Below are positions 26,846-46,052 of a stretch of DNA of 64,000 bases, one piece after another. The notes beneath the pieces were generated by a model. That model saw nothing but the letters and a program-made list of their open reading frames with translations. It did no database searches and was not told the origin of the DNA. The stretch is from positions 4,425,815 to 4,489,814 of the forward strand of contig CAIIXF020000003.1 of NCBI GenBank assembly GCA_903813345.2, read 5' to 3'. The stretch comes from Owenia fusiformis (lineage: Eukaryota > Annelida > Polychaeta > Sabellida > Oweniidae). Position numbers and translations under genes: made by a program. Positions within the stretch are counted from its first letter, which is position 1. Each line of letters begins with the position of its first letter.

Positions 26846-28700
26846 AGTATATTTTTAAGACGTGTAACAGATAAAGAAGTCAAAAAAATTATTGATAATT
26901 TAAAAGATTCAGCAGCAGGGTATGACGAAATTAAACCAATAACAGTTAAGAGTTCAAATGACATATTCACTCCTCCTTTGCTCCATTTGACCAATTTATC
27001 TCTCTCGACTGGTGTCTTTCCAGATCAATTGAAAATAGCCAAAATTATTCCAATCTTCAAAAAGAATGATCAAAGATACTTTAGTAATTATAGGCCAATA
27101 TCACTTTTATCAGTTTTTTCTAAAATATTTGAGAAAATTATGTATAATAGAGTTGTTGAGTTCGTTGAAAAATTCAAAATAATCTGTATCAATCAATTCG
27201 GATTTCGAAGGAATCGATCTACTTGTTTAGCTATTTTAACTTTCCTAGAAAACCTAAGGAAAGCTATGGAGAATAAACATTACAGTTTAGGGATCTTTTT
27301 GGATTTAAGTAAAGCCTTTGATACGGTTAACCATGATATTCTACTTACTAAATTGAATTTTTACGGCTTCCAGGGTAAATCTTTGGATTGGTTCAAAAGT
27401 TATCTTAGTAACAGAAAGCAAACTACTTTTTTTGAACATGAATACTCGGATATGAAAACAATACAATGTGGTGTCCCTCAGGGATCCATTTTAGGCCCCG
27501 TACTTTTCATCCTTTACATAAATGACCTAATCTCTACTAGCAATTTATTCAAATATGTAATTTTTGCTGATGATACAAATATTCTTTGCTCTGACAAAAA
27601 TATTTATTCCTTAATTGATATAGTGAATAATGAATTAAAAACTGTAGATGATTGGTTCTGTGCTAATAAACTCTCATTGAACATTGATAAAACCAACTTT
27701 ATGGTCTTTACAACTTCACAAAATAGGGTACCAGATAATATTTCAATCAAAATTAGAGACTCTTACATTATTCGTGTTTTTTCAACAAATTTTCTTGGCG
27801 TTATAATTGACCAAAATTTAAATTGGAAAGAACATATTCGAAAAATTGCACTAAAAATTTCAAAAACCATAGGTACTCTATTTCGAATAAAACACAAACT
27901 CAGTATCAAATCATTATTGAATATCTATTACTCACTTATTTATTCACACTTACAATATTGCATCCCAGCTTGGGGTGGGACAGGAAAAACACATATTGAT
28001 ATCTTATTAAAGCTGCAGAAAAGATTTGCCCGCTTAGTTACTAATAGTGAATATAATAAAGCACCATCATCACCTTTATTTCAACAACTAAATATACTGA
28101 AAATAAATGATATTTATAAACTCAATGTTCTTATCTTTACTTACAAATGCATCAAACGTCCATACAATTTTCCGAATGACTTATTTTGCAATTATTTTCA
28201 AGCAAATCAGCAGGTACACGACCATAATACAAGACAGACTGACAATCTTCATATTTCCAAATTTAGAACCAACTATGGCAAACGAAGTATTAAAACTCAA
28301 GGGGGAATAATCTGGAATTCAACTCAAGATGTTATCAAAAATTCAAAAACCATTTTTATTTTTAAGCGAGCCTTCAAAAGACATGTAATTAGTCTCTATG
28401 ATTAGTACCCTGTACAAATTTTTAACAGATGCACCTTTTTCCATTTAGCTATTCTACATCATTAAAATGTTTTATTACACTTTTTATAATGTACATCATT
28501 TTTATTTTTATTTATTTCCCAGTTTGGCTTACATAATTTATACTTTGAGACACTTTGTAACATCAATAATAAATGTAACTAACAATATGCCATTTTTAAA
28601 TATTTTAGCTTGTGATAAGACATACACCCACTAGGGTGTCATTATCACTTATATGTATATATGTTTATATGATTTTAATAAATAAAAAATAAAAAAAACT
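26846..28700 (+). mobile_element. 5'-truncated non-LTR retrotransposon (Jockey/CR1/L2-like)
   Basis: The fragment begins inside the region upstream of the reverse transcriptase (VTDKEVKKIIDNLKDSAAGY at 26860), without endonuclease or ORF1. The RT frame closes at 28405. A ~290-bp 3' UTR follows, with a short palindromic CCACTAGGGTGTC motif near 28630, then an A-rich TAAATAAAAAATAAAAAA tail. A shorter minus-strand relative lies near 61905-62330 and shares the CCACTAGGGTGTC motif. Confidence 0.88.
26863..28405 (+). CDS. Reverse transcriptase of non-LTR retrotransposon (partial)
   Basis: This RNA-dependent DNA polymerase would copy element RNA by target-primed reverse transcription. Seen in order are YRPISLLSVFSKIFEKIM (RT motif), FGFRRNRST, LDLSKAFDTVNHDILL (catalytic Asp of motif A), GVPQGSILGPVLFILYINDL, and FADDTNIL (motif C, the catalytic FADD). 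A thumb region follows, with LGVIID and WGG, and a C-terminal HDHNTRQ. The long uninterrupted frame argues for a young or recently active copy, though it lacks its 5' part. The open frame extends upstream of 26978 without a start codon; 26863 is the first codon of clear similarity. Clade assignment within Jockey/CR1/L2 is by eye. Confidence 0.92.
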
Positions 28701-30707: not shown

Positions 30708-30777
30708 ATGAATTTTTTAACTTTGTTACTTTGCATCGTTGCTGCCGCAGTCTTCCCAGAATTTGTCAACGGACAGG
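30708..30777 (+). CDS. Galaxin-like gene exon 1: signal peptide
   Basis: A 70-nt exon from ATG to a GTAAGC donor, phase 1. It encodes MNFLTLLLCIVAAAVFPEFV and NGQ, a standard secretion signal with hydrophobic core and small residues before the likely cleavage site. It is too short to stand out as an open frame. It is placed by the signal peptide, the donor and the phase match to exon 2. Confidence 0.78.
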
Positions 30778-33700
30778 GTAAGCTACGATATCTGTAACAT
30801 TTTAACCAAACTTATTGGAATTGTTTTGCTCTCAAAATAAATAAATTCGTTTGAAATCAAATAATTAAAAAGATGTGATCGGAGAATACCTGGATTTAAA
30901 AAAAATAAAATCGTAGTGAAAAGTTTGGGTTATTTCTGGGAAATCGGAACAAACAGGGATTTGTATAAGAAAATCAAATCGGGTGGAAATCGGGATTTCT
31001 ATAATGAAATCGGGAGTAAAATCGGGGTTACAAAACTAAATCAACAATTCGAAAAAATGGATATAACGACATATCAATCTCAATAACAATAATAATTCTA
31101 CCACCATTTACCATTTCACCATTTTTATCAATTTTGAAGGTCATTGTGAAAGATCACTTAATACCATTTTCGAGTTCATTACCTTATATGACAAAACATA
31201 TGCTTGTCATAGAAACGGGAGGAAGGGGTCATCGGAGCTACCTATACCTTTACCGTAATTGCACGTTGCAACATTATTTCGTATGCCGATTTCCCTCAAT
31301 AAAACATTCAGTTTAAGGAATTCTATACACACTATGACCCGAGAACAAAGATTAATTGTATAAATTGTCTTGCTGCTGTGAAATCACCAAACAATTTAAG
31401 AGAAAGGATGAGCATCAATAAAATAAGACATGTGTTCCATCTGCTTTTATTTAACAGAAAACATTCTAGATTGTGAAAGAGACCTTTTAAATGGAACTTG
31501 CCAAAGGAGGTGTTCACGTGGACAAGTATTAATGAGGGGATATAGATGTCGTAAGAGACGTGTTGCTGCGTGCTGTGGTAAGTTTTTTATATTATACATG
31601 TCAAGTTCTTAAGGAAGATATGGATGTTCTCATAGAAGACATGAGTGTCGCCGTGAGCTTATTTTATATAATATACATGTCAAGTTCTTTAGAGAATACA
31701 TGGATGACCTCGTAGGAGACGTTTGTTCTGTGATAAATGTATTTATTTTATACATATCAGTGGTGATCCACTCGATTACGCTGGTTACCAAAACGGTTCG
31801 TTTCGGTAACAAAATGTCGGAACGTCGAAGGTATGCTTTTTCTTTTTTCCTTATTTCACGTGTCGTAGGCAGAACCCCCACATGCCTACAACGTGTGAAA
31901 TAAGGAAAAAAGAAAAATCGCACCTTCGACGTTCCGACATTTTGTTACCGAAACGGTTAATCCAGCGTAATCGAGTTGATCACCAGTGCATATCAAGTTC
32001 TCAAGGAGAGACATGGATGTCGCCGTAAGAGACGTGGGGGCTGGGGTAAATTTATTTTATAATCTAGATATTAAGTTGTCAAAGGTCTATGAATACTAAA
32101 CTTATAAAAGCTAATAGCCCAGTCAAACTAATGAGAAAAATAGCTTAACCCAAAACAAATTGCAATAGAAATCAAAATAGGTTAGTTATTTACATTTATT
32201 AACCTTGAAATACATACTAAAAATCTACCAAAATCGAAATAGTGGAACAATGTTAAAATTTGAATCGAAGATACCCCCTACCCCACCCCCTTCAATTTAT
32301 GAGTGCAGGACTAAAAAACATATTTCTTAAAGTTGAGGTCTTATTTTTACATGATTTAGCTTGACCACAATTGGATATTGTTTTTCCTAGATAATAATAT
32401 TGATTTAACAAAGAAAAAGTTCATTTGTCTTCTTTTTAACCCTTACAAACCCAGAAAATATAGAAAAAATCTCTCAAATTTTGCATATAATAATTTGAAT
32501 ACTGTAAAACAGGTATTGTTAGCGAGGGGTAATTGTTAGCGAATGTTAGCGATTGCTATAGTTTCGCTAAAAATTCATTTCGCTAAAATAAACCAGGGTT
32601 AAAATAAACCGGGCACTAAAATTTGCAAATTCCCGGGAAAATACATGAATACTAGTATTTAAGGAGCTTTTCGTTCAGTGCTCAACTTACAGTTTGTAAT
32701 TTGAGATTAGTTTGGACCGAAAAATCAACGATTTTAAATGCTACCGTGATTTTGTGATTAGTCAGATGAGATTGCAGTAGTTTGGACCAATACCATGTGC
32801 GTTAGAAGTCTTACATTTTGATAATTCCTCTTTCATGTCCGTTATTCATTCTTCTGCCATAAATGATAAAATTTCTAATGCATTTCGCTAATTTGATTTT
32901 TTAAAGCAGATTAATCTTCATTTCGCTAAAATTTCCAGCGCTAAAACCCCCTAAAATTGAAAAATCGCTAAAATTTCCCGGTGTCAAAATTACCCGTTGT
33001 ACAGTATGTGTTTTTATCATGATGGGACCTTCGAGAAAATGGCCTATAATTTATAACGATGGACCAACATTACATTTATTATTCCTTTGTAATATTGAAA
33101 TGATAGGTCTATTGAAATTTGAGAAATAAACTTTTTGATACCGTATGGTTAGGCTACTAAAATGTAGGTCAGAAAATGAAATTTGTACAAATGAGAGGAA
33201 AAGGCACAAATAAGGTACCGTTGTAAAACTAATGACCCAATATTTTCAAATCCACTTGTTTCCCAGTCTCAAATTTGTTACCAATAATGTCAAATGCCAG
33301 TTTCCATAGCAACCATTTGAATATTGTTAATAGATGTAATACGATATTAGGCAAATTCCACTCATTATTCCTCGACTCAAATTCATATTTGTATCATAAT
33401 GAAGCAATAAATATGCAATTAGCCCATATGCAAATTAGCTCATTTGCTAATTTATTATGACATCATATGATGTGTATTTTATCGTATCTAAAAAGGTAGG
33501 AAACTGTTGTCTGCTTGGCGGATGGGTGGTGTTGCATTTTTCTTGAAATCACGATTCCTGGAAAACCACTTAATGAATTCACTTCAAATTTTCACAAATG
33601 TTACATGGAAAGAAGTTCTAGAGCTGATTCACTTTTCGGTGGCCATGCATCTTGCATTCTGGCGGCCATCTTGGAAGTTTTTAGATAAATCTTGCCATCA

Positions 33701-36700
33701 CAATTTTCAAAAAATCCCTCAACATATTCATTTCAAATTTTTCACATGTTACATTGTAAGAAGTTCTAGATCTTAAAATCTTTTCAAAAGCCATCTTGCA
33801 TTCTGGTCCCCTTTCAGTAGCCATCTTGCATTGTGGCGGCCATTTTGGAAGTTTTTGGATTAATTTTGTCATTGGCATTCCATGAAAACCACTTAATGGA
33901 TCAACTTCAAAACTTTACACATGTTACATGGCAAGATGTTCTACAGCTGATAAATATTTTGGTGGTCATGTTGCTTTTTGGGTAAACAAGCCCACACTGC
34001 TGATGTATTAGGTACAATATTGTTAACCCTGTGCCTTGTTCTACATTGTACTCATATATTTAGACACAATGTTGATTGGTATTGTAAAAGTTAATATTGT
34101 CACGCGGTAAACAGGATACAAATATATGTCATATTCCGCAACGAATATGGCATATCCAATTGCGGTGTATGCCAGATTCACCCGCGGTATATGGCATACA
34201 CACTAACCAATGAGAACTTTAAATGGAACCAATCAAATCGATGCTTTCTGTATAATATTTTCATCTGCTGTATATGGAATATTCGGCAGTTGAGTGTATC
34301 GCATATTCACAAATATTGCACAACCATGAATATATGCCATGTTCCACATAACAACTATAAGAGTATGACTGGAATATGTAAGCACTAGTGCCAAAGGGTA
34401 AGCACCAAAACTTGTTCAGAACAAAGTAAAAAAAATTAAGTATACATCAGTCACAAGAAAAAGCAAACCCAAACTTCCAAAAACCATAAATATTGTACTT
34501 TTGAGGTTCCGACATTTTGTTAACAAACAAACCGTTTCTGTATCCAGCTTAATCGAATGGATCACCAGTGAAATTCAGACTAAATACAATTAAATTTACT
34601 GAAAGCTACTTGAATTCAAAATTTTGACACTGAAAAGCCAAGGTCATATTTTTGCGATTCTGACACTACACTTTCATAATATTCATCGAGGTTCGATGTA
34701 CTGGTAGCCAAGAATATGCTAATAGCCTTAGCCTCAGAGGGTATATTGACCTACTTTTGAGATTTGTATGGAAAATAGGTCAGAGCAAAAAGTTCTAAAT
34801 GAATGCAATGTTTTAGGTGTCAAAACACTGCGAAATTTCTGAAATCTGACTTTGAGTTTAGATTCTTTGATTTTTTGAAATCTCGGAAAGTTGACTTGAT
34901 GATATCCTCATGTTAAGTCAATGGTGCGAACTTGATCAGCAACCCACTAAGCTTCTTAATCAGCTACTTACACAGCTACCTATATCATATTTATAGTGTA
35001 TATATTATTAATAAGATTTCATTTTCAAGTCCATAAGGGTTATTGGTCTCGATTCTCCCAGTAATTTAAAAATAAGTGAAACAAATGAAGGCCTATCCCT
35101 ATTTTTCAATTTGTTTTAAAAAATTATTAACTTTATATATATTTATATTATATTTAAGGCATACATTATATATATATGATTTCATTATAAAGTCCTTAGG
35201 GGTTAATGATCTAAATTCTCCCAGTTATTTAAGAATAAGTGAAGCGAATGAAGGCCTACCCCTAATTTTAATCGAAACTTATGATTTTTTTTCTCAACAA
35301 CTAATAAATGCAAAATTCTCTTGCTTTGTATATGTATGGATTACATAACAAGGTAAAACTGGGATTTTTCTTATACATGATTGAGTCGCTTTTTAGGAAT
35401 ATAATGGCGTTCACATAAAATTACAGTGCGCATTTAATGCAAAATTTCAGATGAATAAGGGTTAAAAATATTCTTATTCACTCTGAATACCAAAGTTAAA
35501 GAAATACACAGATTGGGATACCTTATTACAAGCAAGGAATTGTAAAATTACTTTAAAAAAATTGCAGGCATTTGGAAAATAATTTTTTCCTTCGGGGGGT
35601 CTGTTTTTCAAGGGGAGGGGGTACCAAAAATGATTTTTTTACATGTTCCACTGAATAGATTTTGGTAGATTTTTAGTATGTCATTTCAAAAGTTGATATA
35701 AATTGAAAAAAACAACATTTTATTACTATTGCAATTAGTTTTGGGTCAAATGTTACTTTGACTGGACTATAAGAGTATATTTAAAACATACTACTATGTT
35801 TAAAAACAATTAAATGCATATGTCATATGTATGGATAATTATTGGCATGTGATTGAAGATATGCAACTCACTTTTGATTTTCCCTTCAACATGTATAACG
35901 AAGACTTCAGTATAAATGAAGTGGCCTTTGGTCTTATGATCTCAGGTTGTGATATTGATCTTGGGTGGTAAGGGGGAGAAGGGGATATTGGATACCATTT
36001 CTTTTAACGTCGGATTATGATTTACGATGATTGGGGTTTGTTAACCTTATGACTGGTATACTCCTTGATGTTTTTTATTTATTCATGTATTATAGTTATC
36101 TAGTGTTACATTTACGCATCAGATACCCATAGGGGGTATATCAGTGCATTATCAAGAATTGAAAAAAAAACATAAAAGTGTACAATCAATATAAGTAACT
36201 GTGTTATGTAACCATTGTTGGTACTTTCCCGTTGGTGCTTGCGCAAACATTCAAATAAATGGATGAAATATATATTTACTGTAGACCTGCAAAATGCGTG
36301 GCAAGGGTTCCTTTAAAAAATAAAGAATAGTAATTAAATAAGACATTTGACAATTAAATAAGACATTTGACATTTTTATTTTTCAGCATTTTGACACAAC
36401 AACAACAAATTGTTTGTTATTGCGTAGTATGCATGGCAGTGCAAAATATATCTAAGCTAGTTCATACGTACTCAACTAAGAAGCTCCAGAGTTTTTCCTC
36501 GTGTAATTTCAGTGCCACTACCAACAACAACGACAGACCCATGTGGATTTCCCGACTGTGTTCCTATTAATGGCACTTCTGGTGGAGGTGTTGGCGCTTT
36601 AGATCCTATGGGCCCTGATTTTGACCCATTCGGTGGTGGGACCAGCGGTGAAGGAATTGGCGGTTGCCCACCTGGGTGTAAACCTGGAATAACTACGACG

Positions 36701-39700
36701 ACCACCACGACTGAGACACCTGCTGGTGGTGATGTAGATGAAAAAGGACTCCCCATCCCTAATCCAGTGACGGACAATACAGCGTCCGAAGAGGCTCCTC
36801 TGTCGGATGATTTAGGTGATAATTTTGTACTGATATATTACACTTAACGATATTGTCAAGTTTACTGCGCGAGCGATGTACATGTTTCAAAATATATAAG
36901 GTACGTTTACCTAAAATAACTTTCAAATGTGTGGATTTTGAGACAATTTCTACGGAAAGCTATAGGGGACATGCGCATAATTCAAAATCGAATGGAGTTT
37001 TAACATGGGAGTGATATCACACACCGCGGCCCAGTCAGATAGATTTCATCGCGCACTGAATGAATTACAGGGGCCGCGTTGTGCAAAGTTAATTAAAATA
37101 AAGTGCGCAGAAATTCCGGCATTCAGTGCGCGATGAAAAAATGATTATCTGTGAATAAATAACGAATAAAAATTCGTGGCACCACGAATTTGATTTTTTT
37201 CGAAAGACTGCGGAGTGAACCAGCGAAATGACAATTTTGGATAATATTGATGGCTCTAACGAGGAGAACTTTGAAATTTCCCGATTCTACCGCGCAGCAC
37301 ATCCAGGACCATGATGCGCACTTTTATCAGATTCGATTCTAATATGGTTTCAAAGATAATGTTCATTAAAAGAGGGCGTATGCATACAGATTACACATGG
37401 CGTTATGTTGAAGTGACCCTTGCAAAGGGTTCCATTGAAAATATATTATTTTTGGCCATTTCATATCTTTTAATTGATATTGTATAAAATATTTTCAATG
37501 TTTGAAAATTATAATCTTATAAATAACATTTTATGTAATAAAACTGTAACGAAATGGTAAATACGGAATATGATGCAATACAATGCAGTGCAATATGATG
37601 TTATACAATGCAGTGCAATATGATGCAATACAATGTGGTGCAATATGATGTAATACAATGCGGTGCAATATGATGCAATACAATGCAGAGCAATATGATG
37701 CAATACAATGCAGTGCAATATGATGCAATACAATGTAGTGTAATATGATGCAATACAAAGCAGTGTTATATGATGCAAAAAATGCAGTGCAATATGATAC
37801 AATACAATGTAGTGCAATATAATACAATAAAATGCAGTGTAATACGATGCAATACAATACAGTGCAATATAATGCAATACAATGCAGTGCAATGCAATAC
37901 AGTGCAAAACAATGCCGTGCAGTGCAATACAATGTAGTTCATTTCAATACAATGCAGTGCAATACAATGTGGTACAGTGCAATACAATGCAGTGCAATAC
38001 ATCGCAGTTCAATACAGTGCAATATAATGTAGTGCAATGCAGTGCAATAAAATACAATACAGTGCAATTCAATACAATGCAATACAACACAGTGCAATAT
38101 AATACAATGCTGTGCAATACAATACATTACACTGCAATAAAATACAATGCAGTGTAATAAAATGCAGTGTAAATCAAGACAATGCAATACAATACTGTGC
38201 AATACAAAGCAATACAGTGTAATACAATACAGTGCAACACAATGTGGTACAGTGCAATACAATGCAGTGCAATACATCGCAGTTCAATACAGTGCAATAC
38301 AATGTAGTGCAATGCAGTGCAATAAAATACAATACAGTGCAATACAATACATCACAGTTCAATACAGTGCAATACAATGTAGTGCAAAGCAGTGCAATAA
38401 AATACAATACAGTTACAATGTAGTTCATTTCAATACAATGCAGTGCAATACAATGTGGTACAGTGCAATACAATGCAGTGCAATACAATACATCGCAGTT
38501 CAATACAGTGCAGTGCAATACAATACATCGCAGTTCAGTGCAGTGCAATACAATACAGTGCAATACAATACATCGCAGTTCAATACAGTACAATACAATG
38601 TAGTGCAAAGCAGTGCAATAAAATACAATACAGTGCAATTCAATACAATGCAATACAATACAGTGCAATACAAAACAATGCTGTGCAATAGAATACAGTA
38701 CACTGCAGTACAATACAATGCAGTGCAATAAAATACAATGCAGTGTAATAAAATGCAGTGTAATTCAAGATAATGCAATACAATACTGTGCAGTACAATA
38801 CAGTGCAATATAATACAATGCAGTGCACTGCAATGCAATGCAATTCAATATGGTGCAGTGCAATATATTGCAGTGCAATTCAAAACAATGCAGTGTAATA
38901 CAATGCAGTGCAACACAATGTGGTACAGTGCAATACATTATAATGCAGTGCAATACAATACAATGCAGCGCAATACAATGTAGTACACTGCAGTACAATA
39001 CAATGCAGTGCAATAAAGTACAATGCAGTGCAATATAATATAATACAGTGCAATACAGTACAATATAATGCAATAGAATACAATGCAGTGCAATGCAATA
39101 CAATGCAGTGCAATACAATAAAATGCAGTACAATACAATACAATGATGTGCTATAAAATACAATACAATGCAATGAAATGCAATTCAATGATATGAATGT
39201 ACACCTTCTACAGTCAAATAAACACAGATAAAATTGTGATAGTATGTTAGTGTATGGAGTTTGAAGTGGGTGGGGGATACAATTACCAGTCTGCTGATTG
39301 ATGACTTAATAACTTAGAAAAGATCTCCTAGCTTTTAACAGGTGGCACTTATGTCTACCTTATGTTCTTGAACAATCTCGTCTAAGAATACAGACCCGTA
39401 TCCTGAATTAACCTGGGGGAGTGGTTTTACCAAGGGGGAGATTTTGCCAAGAGGGGGAGCTTTTTGACAGTTATGGCACAAAAATCATGCGAAAAGTGCT
39501 AAGAATGGTGAAAAACTGCATGATTTTGAACGAATATTTGGCAAGGGGGAGGGGGATGAGGCCCCCTGGCTACGGCCATGGAATACATATAGGAACTTTC
39601 CTTCTCCCAGAAGAAATGGTATACAGGTATTACATCAATCATTCTGGTATTTTGTATACGAAGGTCTGTAGTTACTTTATTGAAAGATGGCAGTGTACAC

Positions 39701-42700
39701 TGTGTACTACCATTTTGAGGTCAGTTTGACTTTATAATTCTGCGCACTATAATCTGTAATTCTCATAGATATCCTCTCCAGAGGCATCACTGTGATCCAA
39801 AATTACAATTTCGCAGGTCAAGTCTGCAGTCTTTCGAAAAAAGTTGAATTCGTTGTGCTACCCTTTCTTGTTGGGCATTTATTAACAGAAAACTATAATT
39901 ACATCGCGCCAGCATATACAAGCTTCAGCGCGATATTTTGAGTATGTTAATAAATAAAGTGCGCAGAAATCGATCTTACTGGGCCGCGATGTGCGATATC
40001 ACTCATAAACAATTTTTAATTGCGCACTGAATGAATTACAGGGGCGCGTTGTGCAAAGTGAATTAAATAAATAAAGTGCGCAGAAATATATCTGACTGGG
40101 CCGCGGTGTGTGATATCACTCCCATGTTAAAACTCCATTGAATTTTAAATTCTGCGGTATATCCCCTTTCGCTTTCCGTACAATTTCCCATGGGATGCGG
40201 GAATCACTTTTGCAGTTGTTTCTAAAATTGGGAAAATAAAAGTTCCCAAAGAAAAAAGCTAGATAGACATGAAAGGTCGATATGAAGAAAGATATACAGT
40301 TCTTTGGGATGAAATTTGGAGCAATTATTTTACATGTCATATTCTGAAATTAAGTTCAGACAAAAATAGAAAAATATCACAAGACAAATAAGTAAAATGA
40401 CGAAAACCTGATTCAGCATCAAGATATCTAGCCAGTAAAAGCTTTAATTAGATCTTCAAGTGCTATGAAAGAACATAAAGTTACTTGATTGAGCACGCAC
40501 ATTTTAAATGAGTTATTTCTTAATGATATTATATTTAATACTAAGCTTGTAGTCGAAAATTAAACTACTATTTTATGACCAACTAATTCAAATATGAATA
40601 GTACCTGCAACTTTTATTTTCCATTCATATTTAAATGAGTTGGTCATAAAATAGAAGGTTAATCCGGTGGCTGCTAGCCGTTAGTTTCATTCACGAATAC
40701 AAGCTTAGATTATTACTTTGTTATTCACATAAAGCATGTATAGATAGACAAGGTGTGTTCCATTCAAGTCAATCCGAACAGGCTATTTCAAATAACTGAA
40801 TTGTATTATATAGCTAACAACTCATCTAATGCCATTTCTTAAATTATAGTTAAACTAATGCAACCTTAAACTGATTCATTTTTTTCGAGTAAAATTCTTT
40901 AAATAGAACCATAGGGAATATTAAGCCAATGGCTTATGCAAGTAAAATGGTAAGTGTTGAATGGTTGTCAAAGTGACAAATTGACCCTTGCAAAAAAATC
41001 CGTTATTCCTTTTTAAGTCATTTGGTATATTCAAAGTAATATTGTTAAAACTATTTTGCAATGTGTAAAAAGATGTTTTGCACGAAAACAAATCGGGAAT
41101 ATTTGAAATTCGCCACCTGATTGACACCAAAGCGTATCTTTGTGTTGACATCATATTTTTAAATGATTTAAGAGCTTACATAATTACATACAAATATAGA
41201 TTGAACAGTTGAAGTAATATAAATCATGCTTGATAAATTCAACGAAGTAAATACAATGATGCGTGCTGCATTTGGTGACCTAAAAAATAGCTTTTATTTT
41301 TTTTAAATGGAGAATAATTCAATCAATCAATTTTTCTATAAAGTATAATTCAATAAATATCTAAAGTGGGATTTCTAGTCATAAAAAGTAACAATTGAAT
41401 GATTAAACTTTATTTTTAAAATCTACACGTAGTCTTTAAAAGAATCGCCATATTGAAATCGTGAACGTTTATATTTCAACCCTGAGGTAAGTTTTTTACT
41501 ATAATATTCACGTAAACACATGTCGTGTTTTTCGGGCAAATAGGGTCTACAATAAATTAGAGTAATATTGGCATAATTTCCCGGATACCTGAGTTACAGA
41601 TCGTTATTTTGTCTCAATTTGAAAATAAACATTTTTTTTTTTGTAGTGTCAAGTGGAGCTGAAGAAGATAATATTGCATCGGCTGAGAGCGCAACAAATA
41701 ACTCTCCTCCTCCTGGATTTGACGGGTCGGATAGCAAGGCTGACGATACGCCCGCTGAAATAAAATCGTTATTTGATGATGTGAAAACAATATCAGAGAA
41801 TGATGCTTTGGAACGCGATTCGATTGGTAAGTCTACGAATTAGCCTTTCTTACCTAGTAGCATCAATAAATGAAACATCTTTCGTTTTAATGCCACAACT
41901 CACCTCTTGATAAAGATACTTAATACTTGTCCATAATTATGTACTGATGTCTTTTAATAAAACGTAGTGTTTTTTAATAAATAAATTCGTCTTTGCTTTT
42001 ACAGTTAGGTCTGATGGTTTAACCGCGGACAGCATCCAGAAATCTGATACACCAGCAGAAAACAAAAATCAAGATGCTTTGATGGTCGGTCGATCGAATT
42101 CATTCACGAAGAAGTATTGGTACTACCCCCCAGCACCAGTCCGATGCGCTGGTCAATTGTTCGATCCAATACGCTACTTTTGTTGTTCCGGTAAACTCTA
42201 CTGGAAGACATTCTTTTATCGTTATTATTGGTACAGTGGTGTGTCATATGTCGACGCTTGTTGCTGTGGAGAACCGTACAACTCGCAGATATCATTTTGC
42301 TGTAAAGATAAGGTGTACTCGATCGAAAAGATTGGTCGACCAGGTTATATCGGTTGCTGTAACGGCAAAGCATACAACAAAGACAAACAATTGTGTTGTG
42401 ATGGGAAACTGTATAACAATGAATATGGCTGTAGTTTGAAATGCTGCGGCAGTAAAGCATACAGTAAGACAGACGCCTTGTGTTGTAACGATATACTAAT
42501 TCCGCGTAGAGGTGACACCCCGATGTCATGTTGTGGAAACGGCGTTTTCAATCCAACAACGGAACAATGCTGCGGGAATTGTGCAAGTAAGCTTGTGTCG
42601 GGAGAGCAGTGTTGCGGAGAGGGCGTATACAAGCCTGCAGTCGAAATATGCTGTGGGGGAAAGGCGTATCCTAAGAATAGATACAACTCGTGCTGTTGGA

Positions 42701-45700
42701 ATCCACCGAATGGAGTCGGAAGTCGTCCGTACGACAGTAGGAACTTTTTATGTTGTGGGAGCAAAGTGTATCGTAAAGTATTCGGTATTGGTACGAAATG
42801 CTGTAGCTGCTATATGAACGGGAAATACATTGCAAAGATATACAACTACGCCAAAAGTCGATGTTGCGGGTGTCGCGTTTACACCATGCCCAACCCCAGT
42901 TACACAAGTTGTTGCTGTAACTATAAATACTATTACTTCAATCGCTACTGCCCGTACTTCCCGTATTACTATTACTTCTCAAGGCCATATTACTACCACC
43001 ACAATTACCCCACATGCAGACTTATAAACCCAACTCAACAGTCGTGCTGTAATGGTAATGTATTTATTAAGTTTGGACCCTACGACAGATGCTGTAACAC
43101 TGCACGCTACGATCGGAGAACCTACATATGCTGCAATGGACAAGTGAGAAAGAGGGTGAGCCCAACGACAACCTGCTGTGGAACAGAGCCGTATAACTAC
43201 CGTGAAAACACATGTTGTTACAACCAGGTAGATCCAACGATACACAATTCCATTAAAATCTGTCGTCTTGCCACACAAAATTATATTTAATAGCAATGGT
43301 GCGATTGGTCAAACGAAGCAATGTTTTTGATCTAAATACAATAGATGCATTGCTTATAATCGGAACAATTTGATTGTAAATTCGTTTGTAAACATTCCAT
43401 GTATCTATGAAATTTGAATCATGGTTCTAGATGTGTCAATTAGTTGGAAAGGTCTTTCAAGCTCTAAATGACTAAGAGTGATGTACAAATTAAAATTTCG
43501 AATCATCACATTTCTCGTTCGTTTATTAAGGAGATACCTTTTTAATAGTTGGCAACAATGCATTGGTTACTGATGCGCATCCCATAATTAGAGCTTTTTA
43601 GTTAGTTCCTGAGTTTGGTTATTTTGAGTTTTCAATTAAAAGTATGAATATTACTTGGGTGCATCAAAAAGTTTTGCAATTTTGACTCTATCGTAATAAC
43701 TATATTGAGTTATGTCATAATATTCGGCACATACAATGATCATACATTTGTGGACATACCTGCAAAATTTTGAGACTGGATCTTCATTTTTTAAGAAAAA
43801 ATGGTTGTCATAGTAATATAAGAAGCGACCTCATGGTTCAATGCAAGTTTATTATTACGCAATAAACAGAATAAATGACATCAATTTGCCAACACCTTGT
43901 TTAGTCTCATATTAACAATTTTCTGCATATTAAAACATTGTTCTCAAATTCCTATTATCAATTTTCTGCAAACATTGTTCTCAAAATATTCAAAATAATT
44001 GCTCCCAGCTGCCAAACATTGTTGATGTCTGTGGACCCAGTCTCTGAAGACAGCCTGAAATCCCCTGCTGATAAAACAGCCAATCGCTTCCTCACGGCTG
44101 AGGCAAGTTCCTATTGGGTTTCAAAGCACATGCCCCTCAATCCCCTCTTCATATGACTGAACAAGAAGAAGTCGCATGGTAATGTGTCTGGGAGTAAGCT
44201 GCCTGTTGTTACACGCTCCCAATCCAGGTCCTCTTGAGCATCAATTGCCACCCTACTTGTATGGGGCCATGCGTTGTCCATATGGAAGTGGGGTTTGTAG
44301 CAGAAAGAGAAAATTTACTTGAAACAAAATGGCTGCCAGAATTCACAGGTTTTCCCCACAATCTACATCACAATGTAAATCCATATGTCATAATAGCCTT
44401 ATGTGATGTCATCAGAACAATAAGAAATAGAAAAGGGGAATGAAAAGACACACAAACCTGTAATTTTGGTGACTGAATCATAATATAACAGAATATAATA
44501 GAATTTAAAATTAACATATTCTAGGTGGAACCGAGTACCCTCGGGTTCCGTTACCATAGCAACCATATCTTTTTACCCAATCACAGATTAGCAACCAAAT
44601 CGTTACACACTATGTATAAATATATGATCTATAATTGTGCCAAATTTCAAAGCAAAGCTAAATGTATAACTTGAGATAGTGTCAAAATTGCAAAACTTTT
44701 TGATGCACCCAAGTACGTTCATTAGAGTAATTTGTATTTTCATATTGAATATTTAGGTTCTACGAATAACAGATGGCAAACGCTCGTGCTGTGGATATGA
44801 ACTATACAACTATAAAACACAAAAGTGCTGTAATGGCATTGTGGTGCCAGGCGGGACCAACTTTATATGTTGCGGGAACAGGGCATGGGACGGCAGGATG
44901 TATGGATGTTGCGGCAATGAACCGTTTTATAAACCAAGCTGGAGTTGCTGTAATGGCAAGAAAGTTAAAGGTGGAGGCGATGATACGAGGTTGGCAAGAC
45001 AGAATTTAACAAATAATTTTAGATCTAAAATTAAACGTTCATTGATAAATAGTTTAATTACTGATAAAACGTATACTTCATTTGAGATTTCGATCATACG
45101 TGAACGCATAACTTATATTTATGAGTATTCCCATACGGTATGAGTATAAGTGATTTGGAGTTTGGCGTTTCGCAAAAATATGTACTCAAACGTATAGAAA
45201 TGTATATTTCATCAATCAATTAAGATGTTCTTTTTACCAAGAATTAATGATTCAATCGCTTTCTCAGCAAAATCCTTGTTCATAAGGTGGATTAAATATA
45301 AATATATCTTCATGTCAAATATCACTATGATTCTCTACCAAAAATAGTATTAGTTCACTTATAAAGAACGTATATATATAAATGGATGGAGCTGCGCAAC
45401 AAGTGATGACGTAGTACACACATTTTATACGTTATAAACATAAGGGGTGTATAAAAACGCTTTAAGTGCAGTTGGGAAATTTCTCTATTAACACAATTCA
45501 TGCATTGATGACACAGACTGAGCTAAATTTCCAGTTACCAAAGGGATTTTTGTGCAAGGATGTGATCATAGGAAACGAAATCAATTTGTTATTAATGTAC
45601 CTCCTCTATAATGAAGGTATTCATTGATTGACATGCATTTTTTGATTAATATTTTCAAATCGTTTAATACCTTATGATTATGTGCTCTTCCCCTAGTGAA

Positions 45701-45987
45701 GTCAACTTTATTTTAATTAATCCTTTGAACACATCGAGACGACACATTTAGTTTATAGTTGTTTCTGTAATACGTGCATTGACAAAATTGTTGCCAATTT
45801 CAGATGCTGTGGACTAAAGACGTATAACAGAAACACTCATTTGTGTTGCTGCAGATGCATCCAACCTAAACAGTCCTCGCAACAGAGTTGTTGCGGCTCC
45901 CGCACATATGACAGGCGGAATGAGAAGTGTTGCCGTAACACTGAAACGGTTGTTCCATCAAATCAAATGTGTATTGCTGGGAGTTAA
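30708..45987 (+). CDS. Galaxin-like secreted protein with an N-terminal defensin-like cysteine module (whole gene, 7 exons)
   Basis: This is a predicted secreted extracellular-matrix protein of about 770 residues. Seven exons join with GT-AG borders and matching phases. The order is: signal peptide (1-23); Arg-rich six-cysteine module (about 24-63); Thr/Gly/Pro-rich and acidic linkers (about 64-224); then about thirty di-cysteine motifs spaced 10-20 residues apart (about 265-769), of the CCxGxxY...CC galaxin type, with a Tyr-rich block near 527-563. Galaxins are known from coral skeleton organic matrix, and galaxin-like proteins occur in other invertebrates. A structural role in a skeleton, shell, tube or adhesive is inferred, not shown. 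Exons 1-4 all end in phase 1, so domains 2-4 are symmetrical modules, typical of exon shuffling. The N-terminal module could make it bifunctional. Confidence 0.88.
31458..31577 (+). CDS. Galaxin-like gene exon 2: six-cysteine, Arg-rich defensin-like module
   Basis: Forty codons, phase 1-1, between a TTTAACAG acceptor and GTAAGT donor. Cysteines are spaced C-x8-C-x3-C-x11-C-x7-CC, inside the published beta-defensin ranges. The segment is strongly basic (RCRKRRVAACC near the end). Whether it folds as a beta-defensin or is a diverged cysteine module is not decidable from spacing alone. Its 3' end and donor are tandemly repeated just downstream. Confidence 0.78.
31540..32085 (+). repeat. Tandem copies of exon 2's 3' end plus donor, one split by a MITE
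   Basis: A 77-78-bp unit starts GATATAGATGTCGTAAGAGA in exon 2, runs over the donor and ends CATGTCAAGTTCTTAAGG. It recurs at 31617 and 31695 (interrupted by the element at 31758-31988) and about 32009. Copies have drifted 20-35%. Extra copies keep donor-like GTGAGC or GTAAAT strings, but none continues the coding frame convincingly. Confidence 0.72.
31758..31988. mobile_element. Foldback MITE, CACTGGTGATC ends, CATAT duplication
   Basis: This 231-bp near-perfect palindrome has left end CAGTGGTGATCCACTCGATT and right end complementary, with CATAT on both sides. The arms are about 105 bp each, meeting at GGCAGAACCCCCACATGCC. A right-end fragment of the same family (GATCACCAGTG with CCGACATTTTGTTA) is at about 34500-34570. 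Confidence 0.88.
32500..33010. repeat. Region rich in TTCGCTAAAAT motifs
   Basis: TTTCGCTAAAA, GCGAATGTTAGCGA and CTAAAATTTCCCGG variants recur in direct orientation at 32520-32630 and 32880-32990, the first beginning ATTGTTAGCGAGGGGTAATT. They look like the two ends of a ~500-bp insertion (TACTGTAAAACAGGT... and ...CCCGTTGTACAGTA inverted, 32500 and 33007). Confidence 0.55.
33550..33965. repeat. Degenerate tandem repeat, CATCTTGCATTCTGGCGGCC unit
   Basis: Blocks GAAAACCACTTAATG, TTCAAATTTTTCACATGTTA, AGAAGTTCTAGA and GCCATCTTGCATTCTGG recur in order two to three times, with ~180-bp spacing and loss of parts. Intronic and non-coding. The open frames on both strands are by-products of the repeat. 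Confidence 0.65.
34098..34353. mobile_element. Short copy of the TGTTACGCGG MITE
   Basis: It shares the left end (TGTCACGCGG), the internal GGCATATTC-like blocks and the phrase ACTAACCAATGAGAAC with the element at 13482-14101. The right end is CCACATAACA. It is internally deleted relative to that copy, and no clean target duplication is seen. It lies in the large second intron of the galaxin-like gene. Confidence 0.7.
34500..34570. mobile_element. Fragment of the CACTGGTGATC foldback MITE
   Basis: GAGGTTCCGACATTTTGTTA followed by CCAGCTTAATCGA and GGATCACCAGTG matches the right arm of the 31758-31988 element. The left arm is missing. Confidence 0.7.
34990..35290. repeat. Two tandem copies of a ~165-bp unit
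   Basis: ATTTCATT, AAGTCCxTAxGGGTTA, ATTCTCCCAGT, AATAAGTGAA and GAAGGCCTA occur in the same order at 35015-35100 and 35180-35265. Confidence 0.65.
36513..36815 (+). CDS. Galaxin-like gene exon 3: Thr/Gly/Pro-rich acidic linker
   Basis: A 303-nt exon, phase 1-1, acceptor GTAATTTCAG and donor GTGATA. It encodes PLPTTTTDPCGFPDC, a Gly/Asp/Phe-rich run with GPDFDPFGGG, CPPGC, a seven-threonine run, and an acidic end (EEAPLSDDL). The threonine runs are candidate mucin-type O-glycosylation sites. The four cysteines form two CxxxC-like pairs. The exon is symmetrical and could be skipped without a frame change. Confidence 0.8.
37571..39190. repeat. Degenerate 5-bp satellite, CAATA/CAATG/CAGTG units
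   Basis: About 1.6 kb is built almost only from CAATA, CAATG, CAGTG and close variants, e.g. GTGCAATACAATGCAGTGCA. Because 5 and 3 are coprime, every frame cycles through a five-codon series, which creates long open frames on both strands. These are not genes. The strong strand bias (G and C fixed by position, few T clusters) is a feature of the array. Confidence 0.95.
39395..39580. mobile_element. Degenerate copy of the CCGTAGCCAGG MITE
   Basis: It contains GGCCCCCTGGCTACGGCC near its right end, AACTGCATGATTTTGAACGA inside, and GGGGGAG runs. It is the inverted counterpart of the 10426 element, but the left end is eroded. An open frame across it is incidental. Confidence 0.6.
40563..40670. 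mobile_element. Short palindromic MITE, TTAATCCGGT end
   Basis: CTACTATTTTATGACCAACT pairs with GTTGGTCATAAAATAG, enclosing CATTCATATTTAAATGAGT, with GGTTAATCCGGTGGC at the right end. Same family as the copies at 51346-51463 and 51826-51942. Confidence 0.72.
40671..41646. other. Remainder of galaxin intron 3, nothing recognised
   Basis: AT-rich, no repeat match or coding sign. The acceptor before exon 4 has a pure T tract (about 11 T) at 41632-41642. Confidence 0.5.
41647..41826 (+). CDS. Galaxin-like gene exon 4: acidic linker
   Basis: Sixty codons, phase 1-1, donor GTAAGT. It is rich in Asp, Glu, Ser and Ala (GAEEDNIASAESATNN, SDSKADDTPAE, DDVKTISENDALERD), with no cysteine. An acidic segment next to cysteine repeats is common in biomineral-associated matrix proteins and could bind calcium; that role is inferred. 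Confidence 0.83.
42005..43227 (+). CDS. Galaxin-like gene exon 5: main galaxin repeat array
   Basis: A 1223-nt exon, phase 1 in and phase 0 out, acceptor TTTTACAG. After about 40 non-cysteine residues it carries about 21 di-cysteine motifs in units such as CCGSKAY...LCC and CCGEGVYKPAVEICCGGKAY. A Tyr-rich interruption (PYFPYYYYFSRPYYYHH) lies near residues 527-563. I end the exon at the CAG|GTAGAT donor at 43228, since this restores the repeat spacing (ENTCCYNQ then VLRITDGKRSCCG). If read through, the frame would stop at 43288 and lose the last nine repeats; this could be an alternative 3' end. Confidence 0.93.
43654..44713. mobile_element. Mariner-like non-autonomous element in galaxin intron 5
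   Basis: Ends are CTTGGGTGCATCAAAAAGTT and its complement, flanked by TA on both sides. The terminal inverted repeats continue through TTTGCAATTTTGAC. The interior has no transposase motif. It separates exons 5 and 6, taking up most of the intron. Confidence 0.85.
44757..44989 (+). CDS. Galaxin-like gene exon 6: galaxin repeats
   Basis: A 233-nt exon, phase 0 in and phase 2 out, acceptor ATATTTAG. It holds five di-cysteine motifs (SCCGYELYNYKTQKCCNG, FICCGNRAW, GCCGNEPFYKPSWSCCNGKK). The donor GAG|GTTGGC is weak, but it gives DDTR|CCG with the next exon in the correct repeat spacing. Without splicing the frame runs on to 45143 without cysteines. Confidence 0.86.
45804..45987 (+). CDS. Galaxin-like gene exon 7: last galaxin repeats and stop
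   Basis: A 184-nt exon after a CCAATTTCAG acceptor. It has four di-cysteine motifs (CCGLKTYNRNTHLCCCRC, SCCGSRTYDRRNEKCC), a final single cysteine (NQMCIAGS) and TAA. It is too short and out of the main frame to be noticed as an open frame; found by the repeat pattern. Confidence 0.88.
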
Positions 45988-46046: not shown

Positions 46047-46052
46047 AATAAA
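46047..46052 (+). terminator. Polyadenylation signal AATAAA of the galaxin-like gene
   Basis: The hexamer is 60 nt after the stop codon, at a usual distance for a short 3' UTR. A T-rich stretch follows within 20 nt. Confidence 0.65.

Follow-up and report, generated by a model that had tools for sequence, protein, structure and literature searches.

The locus at 30708–45987 on the plus strand of this 64,000-nucleotide stretch of the Owenia fusiformis genome (the window) raises the question of whether a defensin has been joined to a galaxin repeat protein, and of what the resulting protein might do. A sequence-only reading had placed a basic module with defensin-spaced cysteines between a signal peptide and an acidic linker leading into galaxin repeats.

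Gene model and the exon 2 module

One seven-exon gene is predicted at 30708–45987 from reading the DNA, with all exons on the plus strand. The predicted product has 770 amino acids and a pI of 8.4, and contains 83 Cys; its CC pairs number 31, and 30 of these lie in the galaxin body. The successive splice junctions have phases 1, 1, 1, 1, 0 and 2, and a single frame is kept. Exon 1 (30708–30777) holds the start codon and, as judged by hydropathy, a signal-peptide-like segment, MNFLTLLLCIVAAAVFPEFVNGQ; its hydrophobic 23-residue start was assigned by a hydropathy scan only, and the exon ends in a phase-1 donor. Exon 2 (31458–31577), symmetric in phase (1-1), encodes the 40-residue basic six-cysteine module. 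The acidic linker spans two more phase 1-1 exons, namely exon 3 (36513–36815), which is rich in Thr, Gly and Pro and has four Cys, and exon 4 (41647–41826), which has none. Exon 5 (42005–43227) carries the end of the linker, the pair KK 260-261 and the main block of galaxin di-cysteine repeats, and its donor at 43228 bypasses the stop codon that closes its open frame. The repeat pattern is carried on by exon 6 (44757–44989), with the acceptor tatttag and the donor gttggc, which is weak at 3 of 7 on a simple splice scale, and by exon 7 (45804–45987), with the final repeats and the stop codon. An AATAAA is found at 46047, 60 bases past the last stop at 45987. The four Cys of exon 3 form two short pairs, CGFPDC and CPPGC, at 36542–36679 within the acidic linker.

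On the plus strand from 29.5 to 42 kb, a scan for first exons that resemble a signal peptide and end in a phase-1 donor yielded exon 1 only. The galaxin body therefore has no other evident start in that interval, and a separate galaxin gene with a signal exon of its own was rejected for want of another candidate there. Since exon 1 is the sole exon of signal type in that scan and the phases agree throughout, one fused gene comprising exons 1–7 appears to be the best reading of the DNA. This bears out the order proposed before, in which a signal-peptide-like exon is followed by the basic module, the acidic linker and the galaxin body, with the first exon placed by hydropathy only. The range of 31458–45987 assigned to the gene at that time ends correctly at the stop and leaves exon 1 outside. 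Scans of the whole window for Rfam families and tRNAs gave no matches.

Exon 2 encodes ENILDCERDLLNGTCQRRCSRGQVLMRGYRCRKRRVAACC, which has six Cys and nine Arg among its 40 residues and a net charge of about +5.8. The translation confirms the cysteine spacing of C-x8-C-x3-C-x11-C-x7-CC that had been described for a 40-residue basic module at 31458–31577. A possible N-glycosylation sequon, N35-G-T, lies inside the module. When relaxed to loops of x4-8, x3-5, x9-13 and x4-7, the C-C-C-C-CC pattern has a single match across the six window frames and none in 60 simulated 64-kb sequences (order-2 Markov), and when the residues of the module were permuted 200,000 times, 0.068% of the permutations fitted it. 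This loose cysteine pattern is more than chance.

As a predicted exon, the segment is convincing. On the simple scale its acceptor scores 0.91, against 0.73–0.96 for the others of the gene, and its donor at 31578, GTAAGT, scores 5, against 3–5. Both strands of the window were also scanned, with a crude splice scale, for open phase 1-1 intervals of 60–300 bases between acceptable splice sites. At least six Cys were present in 5 of 87 such intervals. Four of these are parts of exons 5 and 6 and the fifth is exon 2, the sole one outside the galaxin exons. That the module might be a galaxin repeat that has diverged was also considered and rejected, as 144 of 300 Cys-preserving shuffles reached its alignment score against the galaxin body.

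Comparison of the module with defensins

The cysteine order of the module, C-C-C-C-CC, is that of beta-defensins, and its spacing had been described as within the beta-defensin consensus. The formulas given in the accessible part of PMC6805989 are C-x4-6-C-x3-4-C-x7-12-C-x5-7-CC for beta-defensins and C-x4-14-C-x3-C-x13-14-C-x4-7-CC for big defensins. The module falls outside the former by its C1-C2 loop, which is 8 and not 4-6, and outside the latter by its C3-C4 loop, which is 11 and not 13-14. Agreement with the consensus is thus lost at strict spacing, and only the looser pattern used above is satisfied. The module has a Gly two residues ahead of Cys2, as do all seven solved defensins taken as references; it has no Gly two residues ahead of Cys4, which is present in four of the seven, the vertebrate ones.

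Similarity beyond the cysteines was measured with a profile of the seven solved defensins, each sequence being compared with 500 of its own shuffles in which the cysteines were fixed. All seven references were recovered when left out, with 0–3 of 500 shuffles matching each score, although they came from oyster big-defensin and crocodile-defensin seeds and are therefore related by choice. Two other defensins without a printed alignment (6mjv and 6qeu) and the non-defensin matches were left out of the profile, and in the MAFFT alignment the Cys4 of big defensins and that of vertebrate defensins fall in different columns. For the module, 86 of 500 Cys-preserving shuffles reached its score against the full profile and 66 of 500 against a vertebrate-only profile. 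Against the three big defensins its score of 3.1 equalled the shuffle mean of 3.1 and was reached by 207 of 500. Alignment of the module by hhalign to four solved defensins gave a probability of 1.35% and an E value of 0.038 over 13 columns only.

Pfam and NCBIfam scans assigned the module to no family. The absent Pfam family weighs little, because the six-Cys core of a real oyster big defensin, run as a control, also obtained none and its longer form stayed below the cut-off (E 0.043). A PDB sequence search with the module returned no defensin; its four matches (E 1.2–6.3) were all Wilms tumour protein and were read as chance. Structure prediction, which had been suggested as a check, was carried out on residues 25–63 with AlphaFold2 in single-sequence mode. 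The best model reached a pLDDT of 66.5 and the others 50–58, with a helix at 2–10 and two strands of two residues each. No confident fold was thus obtained, and a Foldseek search with this low-confidence model gave no defensin, its two matches (E 5.9 and 8.9) being unrelated.

The hydrophobic N-terminal domain of big defensins is absent, as exon 1 is the signal segment only and exon 2 begins five residues before Cys1. A phase-1 intron behind a signal peptide is a generic feature, common in secreted modular genes. Entry into exon 2 in phase 1, like that into the Cys region of big defensins as outlined in the accessible part of PMC7203481, is a weak point of likeness. Because the strict spacing fails, no similarity remains beyond the cysteines and no fold is confident, a defensin identity of the module is not supported by sequence or model. 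The module may act like a defensin, yet it cannot be classed as one.

The galaxin body and its described relatives

The Pfam family Galaxin_repeat (PF24748) matches the body in five stretches, with E=5.9e-55 and 185.2 bits against a cut-off of 28. Together with the 30 CC pairs, this match upholds the earlier count of about thirty galaxin di-cysteine motifs. The steps from CC to CC measure 13–16 residues in 24 of 29 cases, and the longest is 45. By part, the net charge is +5.8 for the module, -13.3 for exon 3, -11.2 for exon 4, and +27.4, +4.6 and +6.7 for exons 5–7. The acidic region of exons 3 and 4 has a pI of 4.05 and adjoins the Cys-rich repeats, as in the Amgalaxin-like type.

No solved galaxin was returned by a PDB sequence search with exon 5; the two matches, at E 0.017 and 0.34, were both to Mediator subunit 31 and were read as chance in a Tyr-rich part. 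Exon 5 had no relative in viral_contigs or genome_contigs, collections of viruses, bacteria and archaea that are uninformative on animals. The 84-residue spliced N-terminus likewise had no relative in viral_contigs, and the DNA of exon 2 had no match among phages, both being non-animal collections.

Amgalaxin-like 1 and 2 of Acropora millepora (660 and 582 aa) are reported in PMC2726143, as far as its accessible text goes, to consist of a signal peptide, an acidic domain and di-Cys repeats, and a role in the organic matrix was proposed for them. By description, the Owenia protein shares with them the acidic domain and the long di-cysteine region, behind a start that resembles a signal peptide, and in Amgalaxin-like 1 the acidic part (pI 3.21) adjoins the basic Cys-rich part (pI 12.39), as it does here. 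No basic module with six Cys figures between the signal peptide and the acidic domain in the accessible descriptions of the two, with which the comparison was made by description only. The earlier statement that no described protein has this architecture consequently fails for the combination of signal peptide, acidic domain and di-Cys repeats, and can hold only for the module. That combination is known; the added part here is the cationic cysteine module.

Galaxin of Galaxea fascicularis and Amgalaxin have the same tandem di-Cys repeats, but the accessible part of PMC2726143 gives them as acidic proteins (pI about 4.5) that lack an acidic domain and have mature lengths of 298 and 292 aa, against a pI of 8.4 and 770 aa here. 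Cysrichin of Hyriopsis cumingii (PMC10045328) is likewise basic with di-Cys repeats, and is a matrix protein that has a signal peptide; it differs in its 163 aa and five repeats, and neither an acidic linker nor a Cys module appears in the accessible description. EsGal1 of Euprymna scolopes is also a galaxin; it is antimicrobial, and the accessible text of PMC5216023 and PMC8547416 does not link this activity to a defensin-like module. With big and beta-defensins (6QBL, 2RNG and others), as presented in the accessible parts of PMC6805989 and PMC7203481, the module shares the Cys order, the Gly-x-Cys at Cys2, the cationic character and the phase-1 intron. It is unlike them in its loop lengths, the lack of residual similarity, the lack of the big-defensin hydrophobic N-domain and the fusion to a galaxin.

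The SCRiPs of corals and anemones, according to the accessible text of PMC2652719 and PMC10892658, are small secreted Cys-rich proteins as well and were found via a beta-defensin model; they differ in having eight Cys, three of them together near the C-terminus, and in being separate proteins with no galaxin fusion. In one coral, SCRiPs are co-regulated with galaxin under heat stress, and typical antimicrobial function was judged unlikely for the coral SCRiPs (PMC2652719, accessible part); an anemone peptide that is related to them and has the same fold is antimicrobial (PMC10892658, accessible part). The SCRiPs urge caution, as defensin-like cysteines need not mean an antimicrobial. Within the accessible literature naming both galaxins and defensins, no fusion of the two is described, which is a weak absence as these were mostly non-subscription papers.

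Putative role of the protein and the sequence around exon 2

We give about an even chance to a secreted galaxin-type matrix, shell, tube or mucus protein in which exon 2 provides a cationic cap. The di-cysteine repeat body would form a basic, disulphide-rich scaffold, and the long acidic linker would bind cations or pair electrostatically with basic partners. The exon 2 module would then be a separately encoded, disulphide-closed cationic N-terminal cap and a second basic contact point, with an acidic polysaccharide, a mineral-bound acidic protein or a microbial surface as examples of its target. Secretion, disulphide bonding and all the binding roles are what we infer for this protein. We favor the galaxin-type matrix protein because of the coherent phases, the open 770-residue frame, the Galaxin_repeat match, the CC steps and the alternating charge. 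It is favored as well by the parallels in the accessible parts of PMC2726143 (Amgalaxin-like 1) and PMC10045328, where RNAi and shell-notching experiments assigned cysrichin, a bivalve galaxin-like protein, a part in the formation of shell layers. A "charge-complementary matrix protein", one of two functions offered by the sequence-only reading, is a better fit than a released peptide and has its parallel in Amgalaxin-like 1, as described in that part of PMC2726143.

A matrix role alone may nevertheless be too narrow, since galaxins are tied to immunity. According to the accessible parts of the respective papers, squid EsGal1 has antimicrobial activity on Gram-positive marine bacteria (PMC5216023), and mussel galaxin transcripts respond to Vibrio or LPS (PMC6697025, PMC7772429, PMC7773633). 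The pair KK 260-261 also leaves room for the module and linker to be cut off together, and in our judgement an Arg-rich six-Cys module is atypical of a purely structural cap. Galaxins span biomineral matrix and mucosal defence, with members that are matrix proteins in corals and in a bivalve shell and one antimicrobial squid member; a galaxin whose cationic cysteines sit in an exon of their own would allow one to ask whether a defence role can stem from an added module and not from the repeats. If the module is only a structural cap, the protein would be a modest variation on a known layout.

The other function offered, a masked antimicrobial freed by cleavage, is disfavored by the position of the basic sites. 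The sole furin-type motif (R-x-[KR]-R) in the protein is RKRR at residues 55–58, which falls between Cys4 and Cys5 of the module; RR at 40-41 is also internal to the module. Past the module, dibasic pairs resume with KK 260-261, which lies where the acidic linker ends and precedes the first galaxin-body Cys by 11 residues; RR at 392 comes next. In Galaxea and Acropora galaxins a dibasic processing site lies downstream of the signal peptide and ahead of the repeats, as the accessible part of PMC2726143 reports; here the dibasic pairs between signal segment and repeats are those at 40 and 55–58 inside the module and KK 260-261 before the repeats. Because the only furin-type site is internal to the module and no dibasic pair follows until 260, furin-type release of the intact module alone is not indicated by the predicted sequence and was rejected. 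A cut at KK 260-261 would release the module only with its linker attached, and cleavage by some other protease is conceivable.

A defence protein would depart from the galaxin-type matrix protein in that a trans-defensin (beta-defensin-like) module acts on microbes, either kept in a galaxin mucus or shell matrix or shed with the linker at KK 260-261. The C-C-C-C-CC order, the high Arg content, the Gly two residues before Cys2 shared with 7/7 references and the KK preceding the galaxin body are consistent with such a protein, as are antimicrobial EsGal1 and, right before the Cys exon, a phase-1 intron like that of big and beta-defensin genes (accessible parts of PMC5216023 and PMC7203481). We rate it as rather unlikely, since the spacing lies outside both formulas, 86 of 500 shuffles reach the score of the module, hhalign gives 1.35% over 13 columns, the Gly two before Cys4 seen in 4/7 references is missing, and the PDB sequence search and Foldseek returned no defensin. 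Dibasic pairs, the furin-type motif and the possible sequon N35-G-T moreover lie inside the module, and the phase-1 intron after the signal peptide is generic. A related scenario, which we regard as distinctly improbable, is that a defensin-fold exon was captured by phase 1-1 exon shuffling into a galaxin matrix gene, its antimicrobial head being fixed or shed with the linker and drift having left only the cysteine order, the Gly-x-Cys and the charge. An antimicrobial role of the module would be a guess, as its likeness to defensins appears to lie mainly in the cysteine order; by analogy, a defence role of the whole protein is conceivable.

Two other readings concern the splicing of exon 2. 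With intron 2 retained, the frame would run on through 31578–31612 (+), adding the 11 residues GKFFILYMSSS before a TAA at 31610–31612, and the locus could yield a short secreted six-Cys peptide ending CCGKFFILYMSSS in addition to the galaxin protein made by splicing to exon 3. The order of a signal exon and then a Cys exon recalls the plan of defensin genes, which have two exons in mammals and three in fish according to the accessible parts of PMC7203481 and PMC8231796. We hold two products to be very unlikely, as the donor of exon 2 is GTAAGT and the nearest AATAAA motifs, at 32587 and 32603 in the 1.4 kb scanned, are about 1 kb on. AlphaFold2 furthermore models the read-through form (pLDDT 64.5) with a long C-terminal helix at low confidence, its longer elements including two helices and one four-residue strand, and a Foldseek search of the PDB with this model gave no match up to E 10. 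Exon 2 might instead be unused or seldom used, with exon 1 joined to exon 3, as their phases (both 1) permit, and with the module as an open-by-chance part of a local tandem repeat. Intron 2 does contain three decayed partial copies of exon 2 on the plus strand, which are new here and place the exon 2 segment in locally duplicated sequence. The copied unit covers the exon 2 donor together with the 3' part of the exon and the first bases of the intron. Copy 1 (31617–31689) scores 63 against a best of 30 in 500 shuffles, copy 2 (31700–31759) 54 against 35, and copy 3 (31994–32060), past a palindromic insert, 51 against 33; the first two repeats are 79 bases apart, and a fourth stretch (32061–32200) did not score above its best shuffle of 500. 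This duplication suggests that the sequence at exon 2 is locally unstable, and it is silent on whether the exon is used. Skipping seems unlikely to us, as the copy alignments start after Cys3 and the copies thus lack the 5' half of the module, the acceptor (0.91) and donor (5) of exon 2 are in the range of the gene, its six-Cys frame is open, and it is the only open 1-1 interval with at least six Cys outside the galaxin exons.

Other features were noted in and around the gene. The palindromic insert between copies 2 and 3 (31753–31995) is MITE-like, with 73-base arms that are 92% complementary and outer 27-base arms that are 93% complementary, and is bounded by a 7-base direct duplication, CATATCA. 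By eye, 34505–34575 resembles one end of this insert. A 519-residue open frame at 26846–28402 (+) matches the reverse transcriptase family RVT_1 (E=1.5e-37), and the other five of the six window frames scanned with it matched no family. Intron 3 contains a degenerate tandem repeat of about 1.6 kb (37573–39195) with periods of 10–35 and units like ATACAATGCA, and its long open frames are attributed to composition.
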